DNA of 64,000 bases. It comes from Paracoccaceae bacterium (GTDB lineage Bacteria; Pseudomonadota; Alphaproteobacteria; Rhodobacterales; Rhodobacteraceae). Below are positions 6,342 through 59,797 of the stretch, in pieces. Location of the stretch: NCBI GenBank assembly GCA_030950185.1, contig JAUZRU010000009.1:1-64000 (forward strand), read 5' to 3'. The first letter of the stretch is position 1. The number at the start of each line of letters is the position of its first letter. The notes beneath the pieces were generated by a model. It did no database searches, was not told the origin of the DNA, and was given only the letters and a program-made list of their open reading frames with translations. The position numbers and the translations under genes are program-made.

Positions 6342-6359
6342 CGCCTGAACTGAGGTTCA
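6342..6359 (+). promoter_or_regulatory. Inverted repeat upstream of module A
   Basis: TGAACTGAGGTTCA (6346-6359) is a perfect 5-4-5 inverted repeat about 110 bases before the module A start codon. The segment CGCCTGAACTGAGGTT (6342-6357) resembles CGCCTAAACCTGAGATT upstream of module B (59676-59692, minus strand) in the same orientation relative to its gene. Symmetry and conservation suggest an operator, perhaps for the LuxR-type proteins of the modules. This is inference from two sites only. Confidence 0.4.
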
Positions 6360-6467
6360 AATGGGCATTTCAAACCCTGGGCGCATTTCCTTTTGCACAT
6401 CCACGCCCTTACTGCATCTCATGCGATGGCCCATATTGGCCGCAAGTCGAGACGAGGAGATACGACA

Positions 6468-6944
6468 ATGAATGTCAGATCCGTTGTGATGGCCGGGCTG
6501 GTTGCCTCGACCATGATGGCCGGGGGGGCATTCGCCCAGACCGGCAACAAGATGATTGACGAGATGATCGCCCAGCTGCGCAGCCAGGGCTATACCCAGT
6601 TCCAGGTGGGCCGTACGTTTTTCGGCCGCATCCGCATTGACGCGCTGTCGAAAACCGGTGCGCGCGAGGTAATCATGAACCGCTATACCGGCGAAGTCCT
6701 GCGCGATGCCGACATGAGCGCCCACCGGGCAGAGATGCTGGCCGAAATGGCAAAGAACCATGAAGGCGTGATCGGCGGTATGAGCGGTTCTGGAAACATG
6801 GGTGGCTCTGGCAACGGCATGGGCGGCGGTGCCGGTGGTGGTATGGGCGGCGGTGCCGGCGGTGGCATGGGCGGCGGTGCCGGTGGATCCGGCGGTGGCA
6901 TGGGTGGCGGTGCCGGCGGTTCGGGCCATGGCATGGGTGGTTGA
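6468..6944 (+). CDS. Secreted PepSY-like protein with glycine-methionine-rich tail (module A, gene 1)
   Basis: A 158-residue exported protein. ATG 6468 is preceded by GAGGAGA and begins a clear signal peptide (1-23, AFA before the cut). Residues 24-80 form a compact domain with SQGY, GRTFFGR and YTGEVLRD, like a PepSY-type periplasmic domain. Residues from about 98 to the end are almost all Gly with Met, Ala and Ser. The domain is clearly homologous to the protein at 58912-59409, but the tails are unrelated in composition. A membrane LuxR protein follows 99 bases downstream, the same arrangement as the second copy. Function unknown; periplasmic sensing or cell-surface structure are both possible. 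Confidence 0.82.
   Translation: MNVRSVVMAGLVASTMMAGGAFAQTGNKMIDEMIAQLRSQGYTQFQVGRTFFGRIRIDALSKTGAREVIMNRYTGEVLRDADMSAHRAEMLAEMAKNHEGVIGGMSGSGNMGGSGNGMGGGAGGGMGGGAGGGMGGGAGGSGGGMGGGAGGSGHGMGG
6819..6944 (+). repeat. Coding tandem repeat for Met-Gly-Gly-Gly-Ala-Gly units
   Basis: Four in-frame copies of a unit beginning ATGGGCGGCGGTGCCGG, starting at 6819, 6843, 6867 and 6900 (24, 24, 33 and 33 bases), then a partial copy at 6933. Copies differ by synonymous changes and by an 8- versus 11-codon length. The repeat encodes the glycine-rich tail and is a likely site of length variation by slippage. Confidence 0.85.
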
Positions 6945-7043
6945 GCAGCCACTCTGCTGTTGACAACCACCGTGCCCCGGAATGACGGTCATGACAGCCA
7001 GCATTCCGCCTGATCCCTGCCAGCCTGTTACGGAGGAATCCAA

Positions 7044-7547
7044 ATGAAGCTTGCCGCGGCCTTTCGCATCGACAGGATGATCCTGCTTGTCATCATCCTG
7101 CTTCAAGTGGGTTTCTCGGCCTTCTACATCCTCGATTTCGTCCTGGATGTATTCGGTTTTCGCACGGTTCCCATGAGCTGGGAATATTACGAGGTCGTGC
7201 AGGGCGCGACCATTGTCGGCTTGGTGCTGGGCGTGGTGCTGAGCATCGTGATGCTGGTCAACATGCTGCGGCGCCAGAACGAGGTGCGCTCGACCATGCT
7301 GGCGGCCTCGGGGGCGTTTCACGAGCTGATGCAGCTGAGGTTCGACGAATGGGGCCTGTCGCCTTCGGAACGCGACGTGGCCACCTTTACCATCAAGGGC
7401 CTGTCCAATGACGAAATCGCCACCATCCGGGGCAAGAGCGTCGGCACGATCAAGTCGCAATGCAACGCGATCTTTCGCAAGGCAGGCGTCAGCGGGCGCG
7501 CGCAGCTGGTCAGCCTGTTCATCGAGGATCTGACCTCGGCCACCTGA
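7044..7547 (+). CDS. Two-helix membrane protein with cytoplasmic LuxR-type HTH (module A, gene 2)
   Basis: A 167-residue protein: two predicted transmembrane helices (about 12-31 and 54-74), a short linker containing AASGAFHEL, and a LuxR/GerE helix-turn-helix at about 105-158 (SPSERDVA, KGLSNDEIA, GTIKSQCNAIFRKAGV). It has no receiver or autoinducer domain, so it looks like a membrane-anchored transcription regulator. ATG 7044 has a strong GGAGG. It is paralogous over its whole length to 58206-58745, including the segment between the helices (P-x-x-WEY). The secreted protein just upstream is the obvious candidate partner. What it senses and regulates is unknown. Confidence 0.88.
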   Translation: MKLAAAFRIDRMILLVIILLQVGFSAFYILDFVLDVFGFRTVPMSWEYYEVVQGATIVGLVLGVVLSIVMLVNMLRRQNEVRSTMLAASGAFHELMQLRFDEWGLSPSERDVATFTIKGLSNDEIATIRGKSVGTIKSQCNAIFRKAGVSGRAQLVSLFIEDLTSAT

Positions 7548-7622: not shown

Positions 7623-9260
7623 ATGCCGCGCAACCGTCGAATCCTGTCGCTCTGGTTTCCACGACTGGCCGCCGAACGGGCGATGCGGCTGGGGTGCGGC
7701 GTGATCGACGGCCCCTTTGCCGTGGTCGCGACAACCGGCAGCCGACAGACACTTGCCAGCCTGAATACCGAAGCCGAGGCACAGGGCCTGTTTGCCGGCC
7801 AGGCCCTGCGCGATGCGCTGGCCTGCTGCCCCGGCCTGGCCACACAACCCGCCGACCCCGTTGCCGAGGTCGGCTTTCTTGAGCGCATCGCGCGCTGGGC
7901 GGGAAAGTTTACCCCCCTTGTCGCCCTTGATACACCCGATGCCCTGATGCTGGATATTTCAGGCTGCGCACATCTGTTCGGCGGCGAAGAGGGGCTGGCC
8001 ACGACCCTGCGCGACAACTGCGCCGCGCTGGGGCTGAGCGCGCGCATCGGGCTTGCCGACACTCCCGGCGCGGCCTGGGCGCTGGCCCGTTTCGCCGGAC
8101 GCGCGCCCCGGGCATGGCACAGCGGCGACCGTATCAGGCAAGAGGCCCGGGCCACGCGGTCGCGGGCGCAAGCCCGGCCGAACAGACCCGCCCCTGTCGA
8201 TACCACCGCGCCCCCCGCCATCGCCCCGCCGGGGCAGATGCGCAGCGCCCTTGCCCGCCTGCCGGTCGAGGCCCTGCGTCTGCCACCCGATGCGGTGGCC
8301 GGGCTGACACGGCTGGGCATCCGCCATATCGGGGATCTGGCCGGCCTGCCCCGGGCCTCGGTCGCGCGGCGTTTCGGGCGCGACGTGGTGCTGCGGCTGG
8401 ACCAGGCCCTTGGCGTCACCCCCGAACCGATCGGCCCGCTGCCCCCCGAAACCCGTTTTGCCGTTCGCCTGACATTGCCCGACCCGATCGGGCTCGACGC
8501 CGACATCATGGCCGCGATCGACCGGCTGCTGCCTGCCCTTTGCGGCAAGCTGGCCCGCCACGGCCGCGGCGCGCGCCAGATCCGGCTGGAGTTTCACCGC
8601 ACCGACCGCACGCGCCAGAATATCGCGATCGGCCTTGCGCGCGCCATGCGCGCGCCCGACAACATCCGCCCGTTGATCCTGCTGAAGCTCACGGAACTGG
8701 ACGCCGGTTTCGGCATCGACATGATCCGCCTCATGGCCAGCGCGACCGAACCCCTGCATGACCACCAGCATGCCGGCCATGCCGAGGCCCGCGCCGCCGT
8801 CAGCCAACGCCTTTCCGGCAAAACGGCGCTGAATGACCTGATTTCACGTCTGGGCGCGCGCATCGGGCTTGAGGCCATCACCCGTCTGCACCCGGCCGAC
8901 AGCCATATCCCGGAAAAGACCGCAACCGTCATGGGCGCCGCATGGAGCGCCCCCGCCCCCGACTGGCCCCTGCCCCCGACCCCGCGACCGCTGGTCCTGT
9001 TTGCCCCTGAAATCGTCATGGCGCCGGAAACGTCCGACCTTCCGCTGACCTTTCGCTGGCGACGGCGCAATTTCACCGTCGCAGGCACCACCGGCCCCGA
9101 ACGCATCGCCCCCGAATGGTGGCTGAATGATCCGGCCTGGCGGTCGGGCATCCGTGACTATTGGCAGGTGGCCACATCCGAAGGGCCTCGGCTATGGCTG
9201 TTCCGCGCCCATGGGGGGCTGATGTCAGGGGGATGGTTCTGTCACGGGGTGTTCGACTGA
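7623..9260 (+). CDS. imuB: ImuB-like Y-family polymerase homologue
   Basis: A 545-residue protein of the DinB/UmuC superfamily whose N-terminus (LWFPRLAAERA) and C-terminal region match ImuB, the non-catalytic adaptor of the ImuA-ImuB-DnaE2 mutasome in damage-induced mutagenesis. The polymerase active-site acidic residues of true Y-family enzymes are not evident, as expected for ImuB. The helix-hairpin-helix-like segment GLTRLGIRHIGDLAGL lies near 223-238. Unusually, no imuA precedes it and no dnaE2 follows: upstream is module A and downstream the convergent yaaA gene. The partners may lie elsewhere in the genome. Confidence 0.83.
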   Translation: MPRNRRILSLWFPRLAAERAMRLGCGVIDGPFAVVATTGSRQTLASLNTEAEAQGLFAGQALRDALACCPGLATQPADPVAEVGFLERIARWAGKFTPLVALDTPDALMLDISGCAHLFGGEEGLATTLRDNCAALGLSARIGLADTPGAAWALARFAGRAPRAWHSGDRIRQEARATRSRAQARPNRPAPVDTTAPPAIAPPGQMRSALARLPVEALRLPPDAVAGLTRLGIRHIGDLAGLPRASVARRFGRDVVLRLDQALGVTPEPIGPLPPETRFAVRLTLPDPIGLDADIMAAIDRLLPALCGKLARHGRGARQIRLEFHRTDRTRQNIAIGLARAMRAPDNIRPLILLKLTELDAGFGIDMIRLMASATEPLHDHQHAGHAEARAAVSQRLSGKTALNDLISRLGARIGLEAITRLHPADSHIPEKTATVMGAAWSAPAPDWPLPPTPRPLVLFAPEIVMAPETSDLPLTFRWRRRNFTVAGTTGPERIAPEWWLNDPAWRSGIRDYWQVATSEGPRLWLFRAHGGLMSGGWFCHGVFD

Positions 9261-58205: not shown

Positions 58206-58745
58206 TTACCTTCGCGAACGTTTTCTCCGGCTTTTTCCGTTGTCTCTTTCATTGCCGATATCCGAGGCCCCAGCCATCAGCTCGTCAACAAAATAGCTGA
58301 GAAGCTGATACCGCCCGGACACCCCGGCCTTGCGATAGATTGCATTGCTCTGGGCCTTGACGGTTCCTTCGGATGTGTTGCGGATCGCCGCAATTTCCTG
58401 GGTGGACAGCCCCTTGACCGCGAACCATGCGACATCGCGTTCGGCCGGAGTCAGACCCCATTCATTGAAGTGTTCGTCCAGAAGTTCGGCAAATGCCCCC
58501 GATGCTGCACGAAGCTGCGCCTCAACCCTGCGGTTGCGGGCCTGTGTCTTGACCAGGGCAATGGCGCCAAGCACCACGCCCAGCAGCAAGCCCAGCGCGG
58601 CACCGATCTCGATAAGCTCGCGATATTCCCACGGGATGGGTTTCGTGCGCAGGCCGATATAACCCGAAAGGATATCCCACACGAAAAACGAGGCGCAGAC
58701 GAGTTGCACCAGAAAGATCAGCCAGATGACCCAAGGGCGCGTCAC
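58206..58745 (-). CDS. Two-helix membrane protein with LuxR-type HTH (module B, gene 2)
   Basis: A 179-residue homologue of the protein at 7044-7547: two transmembrane helices (about 5-28 and 46-66), the shared loop IPWEYRE, AASGAFAELL, then a LuxR/GerE HTH (about 96-150: TPAERDVA, KGLSTQEIA, GTVKAQSNAIYRKAGV). It starts at GTG 58745 with GAGGG upstream. A basic tail (GKSRRKRSRR) not found in module A ends it. It lies 166 bases downstream of its secreted partner, as in module A. It is probably a membrane-bound transcription factor. Confidence 0.87.
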   Translation of the reverse strand: MTRPWVIWLIFLVQLVCASFFVWDILSGYIGLRTKPIPWEYRELIEIGAALGLLLGVVLGAIALVKTQARNRRVEAQLRAASGAFAELLDEHFNEWGLTPAERDVAWFAVKGLSTQEIAAIRNTSEGTVKAQSNAIYRKAGVSGRYQLLSYFVDELMAGASDIGNERDNGKSRRKRSRR

Positions 58746-58911
58746 GAGACCACCCTCTGATCTGCGCCCGGCATTGGGCGTGCTTCGTTCAAAGTCATTG
58801 GGGTGCCTGTCACTCCCTGCAGTGATGATATCACAACTTAGCCAGACGTTAGGTCTTTGTCATGCCTGATGCCCAGATGGGCGCGTTCCCGGCGGGCATC
58901 CGTGATGTTGT

Positions 58912-59409
58912 CTAGCCATCATGGCCATCGCCCTTGCCGCCATCGCCACCGCCATCAGAATCGCCGCCGTCAGAATCGCCGCCGTCGCCGCCACCGTCAG
59001 AATGGCCATTGTCGCCACCGCCGTTGCTGTCGCCGCTATCAGCATTTTCTTCATTGCTACCCGAAAAGGTGGTTTTTTCCTTTTCGCCGTCATCTGGATC
59101 CAGCAAACCGGTTTGCGGATTTTTTGCATTTTCCTTTTCAGACTTGGCTTTTTCCTTGTCCGATTTGATCTCTTCCCAATAGTCGCGCAGGATTTCCCCG
59201 GAATACGGGTTAAAGACCAGCTCGCGCGTGAACTTGCCGTTCGAGCCGGTGATCCTTGTGCGCCCCAGCCAGGTTCGTGTGATGGAAAGGTTACGAAAAC
59301 CCTGGCTCTTGAGCTCACTGACAAGCTTGTCCTTGACCGATGCTGCAAAAGCCGGCCCCGTGCCCACTGCCGTAGCCAACAACATGGCCATCAGATATCT
59401 GCGTTTCAT
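58912..59409 (-). CDS. Secreted PepSY-like protein with Asp-Gly-rich tail (module B, gene 1)
   Basis: A 165-residue exported protein. GGAGGG precedes ATG 59409, and the signal peptide ends near residue 22. The domain at about 24-80 matches module A's protein: SQGFRNLSI, TRTWLGRTRI, NPYSGEILRD. A charged spacer (Lys, Glu) follows, and the last 50 residues are Gly, Asp and Ser (GGGDGGDSDGG), including a short tandem of 15-base units. The acidic tail could bind calcium or stay flexible; module A's counterpart is neutral and Met-rich. Followed 166 bases later by the membrane LuxR gene. Confidence 0.83.
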   Translation of the reverse strand: MKRRYLMAMLLATAVGTGPAFAASVKDKLVSELKSQGFRNLSITRTWLGRTRITGSNGKFTRELVFNPYSGEILRDYWEEIKSDKEKAKSEKENAKNPQTGLLDPDDGEKEKTTFSGSNEENADSGDSNGGGDNGHSDGGGDGGDSDGGDSDGGGDGGKGDGHDG

Positions 59410-59797
59410 CTGTTCAGCCCTCCGGGGCTTGCTCGGGTCCCGGCTGTTCAGTTCTGACAACCGGGAAATCATTTTTCGTCGCTCGCTCGGCTGTCCGGGA
59501 AAGCGGTCTTTCCTGAACCTCCTTGACGCCGTGCCAGACGGGGCAATGCCACCAATGGGATCACCTGGCGCCTGTCACATATGCCGCCATGCAAGCCAAT
59601 CTGGGCCGATGTCGTCAATCCGGCAATCCACATCCGGGTTATCCGGCCACCCCTAACCTGATTTCATAGCGTCCTAATCTCAGGTTTAGGCGGGAATCGC
59701 GGCACACAGGACGGAACCGGAGGCGTAAAACGGCGGCCGTGAGGGCGTTCATCAAAGAAATAACCCAACATTTACAATGGTCAAGGTACCGCCCCAC
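59410..59797. other. Intergenic region between module B and trpB
   Basis: About 390 bases with no convincing gene. It must hold the promoter of module B (transcribed leftwards) and the end of the trp transcript. It contains the symmetric elements listed separately. I see no tRNA or other structured RNA and no clear intrinsic terminator after trpB. Confidence 0.6.
59655..59692 (-). promoter_or_regulatory. Paired symmetric elements upstream of module B
   Basis: CCTAATCTCAGGTTTAGG (59673-59690) has inverted CCTAA/TTAGG ends. It overlaps a wider repeat: AACCTGA (59655-59661) and TCAGGTT (59680-59686), which recalls the ACCTG...CAGGT half-sites of lux boxes but with an 18-base spacer. On the minus strand, CGCCTAAACCTGAGATT parallels the sequence upstream of module A (6342-6357). 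A binding site for a LuxR-type protein is a reasonable inference. It lies about 270 bases before the module B start. Confidence 0.45.

Follow-up and report, generated by a model that had tools for sequence, protein, structure and literature searches.

Two copies of a gene pair, in which an exported PepSY-type protein precedes a membrane-anchored LuxR regulator, are present in the window, i.e., the whole stretch of 64,000 nucleotides analysed here. We judge it probable, with some reserve, that such a pair forms an autoregulated one-component system, in which a regulator tethered to the membrane has a periplasmic partner dedicated to it. On sequence comparison the pair is a conserved same-strand unit, and the strongest indication of how the module operates is a palindromic candidate operator. 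The features concerned are the following.

6346..6359, + strand: candidate module A operator, TGAACTGAGGTTCA, 122-109 bp 5' of the P0001 start
6375..6390, + strand: second promoter element of module A, CCCTGGGCGCATTTCC, also in the P0005 promoter (promoter alignment)
6468..6944, + strand: P0001, secreted PepSY-type protein of module A, 158 aa, signal peptide, Gly/Met-rich tail
7044..7547, + strand: P0002, membrane-anchored LuxR regulator of module A, 167 aa
7356..7517, + strand: GerE/LuxR HTH of P0002, residues 105-158, recognition helix with Lys137
58206..58745, - strand: P0004, membrane-anchored LuxR regulator of module B, 179 aa, GTG start
58912..59409, - strand: P0003, secreted PepSY-type protein of module B, 165 aa, Asp/Gly tail
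59675..59688, - strand: candidate module B operator, TAAACCTGAGATTA, one mismatch, 279 bp 5' of the P0003 start

Two Homologous Modules in the Window

P0003 and P0004 repeat the arrangement of module A on the opposite strand (58206-59409). The four reading frames and their positions reported in an earlier note were exact on recheck, and its assignment of a LuxR HTH was borne out by Pfam GerE scores of 30.4 and 34.1 bits (cut-off 23.5) for the two window regulators. The homology that it had claimed for both gene products also held: identity is 48% between the regulators (E 4e-45, query residues 13-165) and 39% between the secreted domains (E 1e-11, query residues 4-81), and given these identities and E values the similarity of the two modules is not due to chance. 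The low-complexity Gly/Met tail of P0001, of the GMGGGAGG type, begins at about residue 104. An ImuB/Y-family polymerase-like gene (PF00817) lies 3' of module A on the same strand (window 7623-9260).

The structure model of the regulator (mean pLDDT 88.7) contains helices at residues 2-36 and 46-103 with the HTH helices after them, in keeping with a two-helix membrane hairpin, and the second helix continues in the model as a linker toward the GerE HTH. Two hydrophobic helices and the HTH, a predicted membrane anchor and a DNA-binding domain, are found together in one chain in both the regulator sequence and the model.

Distribution of the Family and Conservation of the Gene Pair

The family was searched for with a regulator profile (A1) built from 20 regulators. 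At E 1e-20 the family was detected in 37 of 61 sampled Rhodobacteraceae genomes, in 42 of 61 genomes of the Rhodobacterales sample and in 7 of 142 genomes of the class sample; in the phylum sample, searched at E 1e-15, it was found in 6 of 150 genomes, every match coming from the window's family or class. Nine of ten genomes of the own genus contained the family.

Three kinds of neighbourhood were distinguished. Class I consists of one or two exported PepSY-type proteins followed by the regulator, class II of a PepSY_2 protein, a cytochrome b561 (PF01292) and then the regulator, and class III of a solitary regulator, often next to ssb, a gene that is also frequently found beside class II regulators. 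Among 143 regulator rows, 109 had a same-strand upstream partner (exported PepSY-type protein and/or cytochrome b561) within 1.7 kb, and 34 had no detected partner. The nearest partner was at most 262 bp from the regulator in 107 of the 109 paired rows, L058 and L157 being the exceptions. The later-fetched set (L104-L157), scored with profiles made before those loci were fetched, had a partner upstream in 48 of 56 rows, including two (L141, L144) with cytochrome b561 alone detected. Adjacency, which the earlier note had proposed as a check of the paired module, is thus upheld in both counts. The 143-row count omits the own-genome copies L001-L003, L005-L007, L082, L092 and L099, the duplicates L083-L086 and L008, and the three solitary regulators L091, L093 and L094; L077 is entered twice because of a split frame, and L113 and L120 each have a near copy (L114 and L121, respectively). 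With L008, L091, L093 and L094 restored, 110 of 147 rows were paired.

Modules A and B are, judged by their regulators, old paralogues: the two sit in separate clades of the regulator tree, so the duplication is old, and a recent duplication of the window modules is ruled out on the same ground. The earlier suggestion that the modules may have specialised is supported by these separate clades, by the different operator half-sites and by the different tails. The own genome (G000; 2.55 Mb, 167 contigs) carries, on another contig, a third membrane-LuxR paralogue (L004:4122-4625, G000:C124; 48% identity, E 1e-38), which adjoins ssb and at whose locus no secreted partner was detected. Solitary copies of this kind recur across the family. 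Within the own genus (10 genomes), module A was found in five genomes and class I modules of a second type in eight; seven of these eight cluster with module B in the tree, from which L101 is absent. At L113 and L114 (G092 and G071), two class I modules are arranged tail to tail.

The Exported Partner

Regarding the term "PepSY-like" used in the earlier note, P0001 and P0003 themselves gave no Pfam match above the cut-off, and it is their relatives that match PepSY_2 or PepSY. Among the class I partners, 65 in number, 11 matched PepSY_2 (best 1e-5) and 4 matched PepSY with E values no higher than 0.01; class II partners are clear PepSY_2 proteins. Comparing the class I and class II partner profiles gave a probability of 92 for an alignment spanning the signal peptide and first helix only. 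The exported-protein model consists of a helix, four strands and a helix, with block means of 95-97 across most of the core. A Foldseek search with the exported-domain model gave no match at E 0.001 or better. In a second fold comparison the Z values reached 6.5, unrelated entries were interspersed among the matches and YpeB (5boi) scored Z 5.0, so that neither comparison pointed to a clear relative. A PepSY origin of the class I partners is likely. As for Tat-type signals, a loose xRRxF motif was present in 10 of 65 class I partners and RR near the start in 30 of 65.

The class I exported proteins have a common core (RT.LGR, RE, TGE.LRD; 65 rows) and a tail with a median of 82 residues. Asp, Glu and Gly make up at least half of the tail in 67 of 91 frames, yet their mix differs widely, and the tail type shifts among relatives between Gly/Met-rich, Asp-Gly repeats and poly-Asp. 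Because these types interchange across relatives, we think it unlikely that the tail is a sequence-specific ligand, contrary to one detail of the earlier proposal, which named the glycine-rich tail as an alternative to the secreted domain for what is sensed. Own-genus secreted proteins at L097, L098, L102 and L103 end in stretches such as YLTGGLGDDIFF, which we take to resemble RTX repeats. The module provides a first functional context for the Gly-rich and poly-Asp exported proteins of Rhodobacterales.

A Palindromic Candidate Operator

Spaced-dyad enrichment in 112 upstream regions yielded TAAA-N6-TTTA, ATAA-N8-TTAT and AAAC-N4-GTTT, which are parts of one palindrome, TAAAC-N4-GTTTA and variants. 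The exact form TAAACN4GTTTA occurred within 250 bp upstream in 9 of 14 double-PepSY modules, compared to a mean of 0.0 in shuffled sequence. When variants are included, a site falls inside the 1.8 kb preceding the regulator at 41 of 68 loci of class I, 19 of 38 of class II and 1 of 35 of class III; downstream stretches of equal length, serving as control, contained one in 3 of 68, 2 of 38 and 2 of 35, respectively. This amounts to 60 of 106 paired modules versus 1 of 35 solitary regulators upstream, and 5 of 106 versus 2 of 35 downstream, the motif and the counts not being independent since the motif was discovered and counted in the same upstream regions. A recognised site was missing in 46 of the 106 paired modules. 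L114 and L121 are omitted from the operator analyses; the window modules are part of the site listing but are excluded from the upstream and downstream counts.

Within the window alone, neither the module A nor the module B site stands out against chance, and the case for the operator therefore rests on conservation. The module A site, a perfect palindrome, recurs as such at an unchanged offset in L008, L009 and, as TAAAC/GTTTA, L010; in L011 its halves differ by one mismatch. The module B site is the only site in the window with at most one mismatch to TAAACN4GTTTA; it is kept in G064 (L100, -275), and an exact site lies upstream in L096, L097 and L098. No site was found upstream in L101, a module B relative in the own-genus genome G069.

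Scanning 12 genomes with the exact pattern, ten of them picked for a known module site, returned 17 sites, 12 of which are in modules. Six of the 12 genomes had one exact site each, in the module. G021, which was not picked for a site, had an exact site 1.28 kb upstream of the regulator, and the own genome had no site of the exact form. A reversed control pattern was not rarer than the motif in the same genomes (27 versus 17 sites). The five exact sites outside modules are at L162 and L169, both within long reading frames, at L159 and L165, both unassigned, and at L166, about 100 bp 5' of a b561-like gene. A large regulon was not seen with the exact pattern in the 12 genomes, a scan by which degenerate sites would be missed.

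The half-site tracks the recognition helix. All 14 modules with GCTTA-type operators have Arg at position 137 of the regulator, and all 46 with GTTTA/GTTCA-type operators have Lys there; at position 141 the GCTTA-type set has Ala, Thr or Gly, and 41 of the 46 others have Asn. Residues 137 and 141 presumably correspond to Lys188 and Lys192 of NarL, which contact bases. In the regulator tree, calculated from 60 rows with the recognition-helix columns removed, the change of Lys/Arg137 together with the operator is one switch, giving one independent pair and no power in a test of co-evolution; the assignment of the operator to the regulator is therefore supported, not proven. The tree omits L145 and L157, both with Lys and mixed half-sites, as well as a single row of class II whose site is weak. 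Lys and GTTTA are retained in L050, a b561-type module placed close to the Arg group in the tree, and no recognised site was found for the further Arg137 regulators L067, L074, L078, L081 and L151.

The periplasmic hairpin differs by class as well. Glu50 is present in 68 of 70 class I rows (the other two being gaps), and class II regulators have Asp35 and Glu53 in 37 of 38 rows and His49 in 28 of 38. These class-specific residues are compatible with a hairpin that may be tuned either to its partner or to a cation.

A Second Putative Target and Plasmid-Borne Modules

In the own genome, TGAACTGAGGTTCA also occurs 150 bp upstream of P0005 (L175:922-1350, - strand; G000:C62:18274), a second secreted protein with a GMGGGAGG tail. 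Within that genome, the DNA pattern of this tail matches at two places only, P0001 and P0005. The CCCTGGGCGCATTTCC element lies 21 bp farther from the operator in the P0005 promoter than in module A. By Pfam, P0005 is not PepSY-like. Its relatives in G064 and G069 retain the site; none were found in the other own-genus genomes searched. Of the five own-genus genomes with module A, only three yielded relatives of P0005. The degenerate form TRAACN4GTTYA has six sites in the own genome. Besides those of module A and P0005, two precede acyl-CoA dehydrogenase-like genes, one precedes a TetR-like gene (names read from the translations) and one is inside a long reading frame; these four were not considered further. 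The sites at L174, L176 and L177, i.e., those of the two acyl-CoA dehydrogenase-like genes and the TetR-like gene, probably belong to another regulator.

Three of 13 records from a plasmid search were examined, and in all three a partner-type gene lies directly upstream of the regulator. On plasmid p7465 of Paracoccus fistulariae (L190), TAAGCGCGCGCTTA lies 143 bp upstream of a module made up of PepSY, b561, LuxR and VIT genes, the regulator being of the Arg type. The same order of PepSY, b561, LuxR and VIT is found on a plasmid of Sulfitobacter sp. SK025 (L189), with an imperfect site at -119. A gene for a metal-sensing repressor is located near the module on this plasmid. On a Thioclava plasmid, which bears a class I pair, no operator site was found. 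The VIT transporter was rejected as a general fourth gene, being present in two of the three plasmids and among L001-L157 only at L143.

Proposed Mechanism and Alternatives

These comparisons strongly suggest that a dimer of the regulator would bind the palindromic operator and control its own operon and, in the own genome, also the secreted P0005, which has the operator, the second element and the tail pattern of module A. Binding of the candidate operator by the membrane LuxR regulator is, in our view, highly probable. The exported protein, or a cation held by this protein and its often acidic tail, would be read by the short periplasmic hairpin. The likeliest working of the module is a feedback, in which the regulator would tune the amount of exported protein to the periplasmic state that this protein reports or sets. 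Direct sensing of the partner by the regulator has slightly less than an even chance, and solitary regulators imply that a nearby partner is not always needed. A cation or metal as the signal is a more tentative idea. Metals are the best guess on account of the acidic tails, the b561 genes, the VIT genes on two plasmids and the metal binding of the PepSY protein lanpepsy, as described in the available part of PMC11845868.

Alternatively, the regulator alone might sense the periplasm or the membrane, and the exported protein would be a mere output, such as a cation buffer or an envelope protein. Such a scheme would accommodate the 34 of 143 rows in which the regulator has no detected partner, and also the finding that the best-supported target is the exported protein's own operon, the second putative target (P0005) being likewise exported and by Pfam not PepSY-like. 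We nevertheless regard it as unlikely, as paired regulators are far commoner than solitary ones and the hairpin residues vary by partner class; this would be expected of a partner-matched hairpin, although shared descent could also account for it.

That some other dimeric regulator binds the palindrome, with the membrane LuxR protein acting elsewhere, appears improbable. Palindromes of this type fit many dimeric regulators, and TRAACN4GTTYA sites precede two acyl-CoA dehydrogenase-like genes and a TetR-like gene in the own genome; however, the site accompanies paired modules, including that on p7465, is nearly restricted to modules in six genomes, and has a half-site that varies with residue 137 of the membrane LuxR regulator. 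There is very little chance that the pair is held together by accident or inherited gene order with no functional link: gene order is largely retained in Rhodobacterales and ssb is a frequent neighbour of class II and III regulators, so part of the neighbourhood conservation is positional, but the pair occurs at separate places in one genome (modules A and B), recurs with different partner classes and is found on three plasmids with a partner-type gene directly 5' of the regulator.

Returning to the tethered regulator with its periplasmic partner, the module might in full represent a new kind of co-component system. A LuxR protein held by a hairpin would read a PepSY-type protein or a cation bound to its tail and control little beyond its own operon, with an operator code that switched together with residue 137; the system would travel on plasmids and could recruit further exported proteins with the same tail, such as P0005. 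We put this forward as a possibility that falls somewhat below an even chance.

For membrane-anchored regulators, both the signal sensed and the way in which the DNA target is located are matters of current interest. The present family is widespread in Rhodobacterales, its candidate operator occurs only once in several genomes, its partner gene is conserved and it offers a natural Lys/Arg specificity switch; both questions are therefore directly testable in cultured, harmless bacteria.

Comparison with Known Systems

The best NCBIfam match of both window regulators is the LIC13292 family regulator (NF047608; E 9e-19 and 1e-18), with 68.2 and 67.7 bits against a cut-off of 200, spanning the linker and HTH and leaving the membrane part uncovered. 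A literature search limited to open-licence papers found no description of a LuxR and exported-protein pair. New here is the palindromic operator upstream of paired modules; the operator, the third paralogue and the b561 variant were all absent from the earlier note.

Transmembrane transcription regulators combine a DNA-binding domain and a membrane anchor in one protein (PMC10269533), as does the single chain described here; the available part of that paper mentions neither the GerE type nor a PepSY partner. The exported partners resemble PepSY_2 and PepSY proteins (PF13670, PF03413), including lanpepsy (PMC11845868) and the PepSY_TM reductases (PMC13038864), so far as the accessible parts of these papers describe them, in being a small exported alpha/beta domain. 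What sets the class I partners apart is a distinct core motif together with a long tail of low complexity.

The co-component systems VtrA/VtrC and ToxR/ToxS, according to the part of PMC9214523 available to us, consist of a tethered transcription factor and a periplasmic partner encoded by adjacent genes on one strand, an arrangement shared by 109 of the 143 rows compared here. In VtrA/VtrC-type systems the signal is received by an obligate heterodimer in the periplasm. The output domain is of the LuxR/GerE type here, while it is a ToxR/CadC-type HTH there. In layout, our regulators have a two-helix hairpin and a C-terminal HTH, whereas in co-component regulators the HTH is N-terminal and is accompanied by a single helix and a domain in the periplasm. 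The partner here is the upstream gene, exported without an anchor and modelled as helix, four strands and helix, in contrast to the lipocalin-like eight-stranded barrel of the co-component partner. Because the output domain and the partner fold differ, the module is not a member of the co-component systems, although it would work like them.
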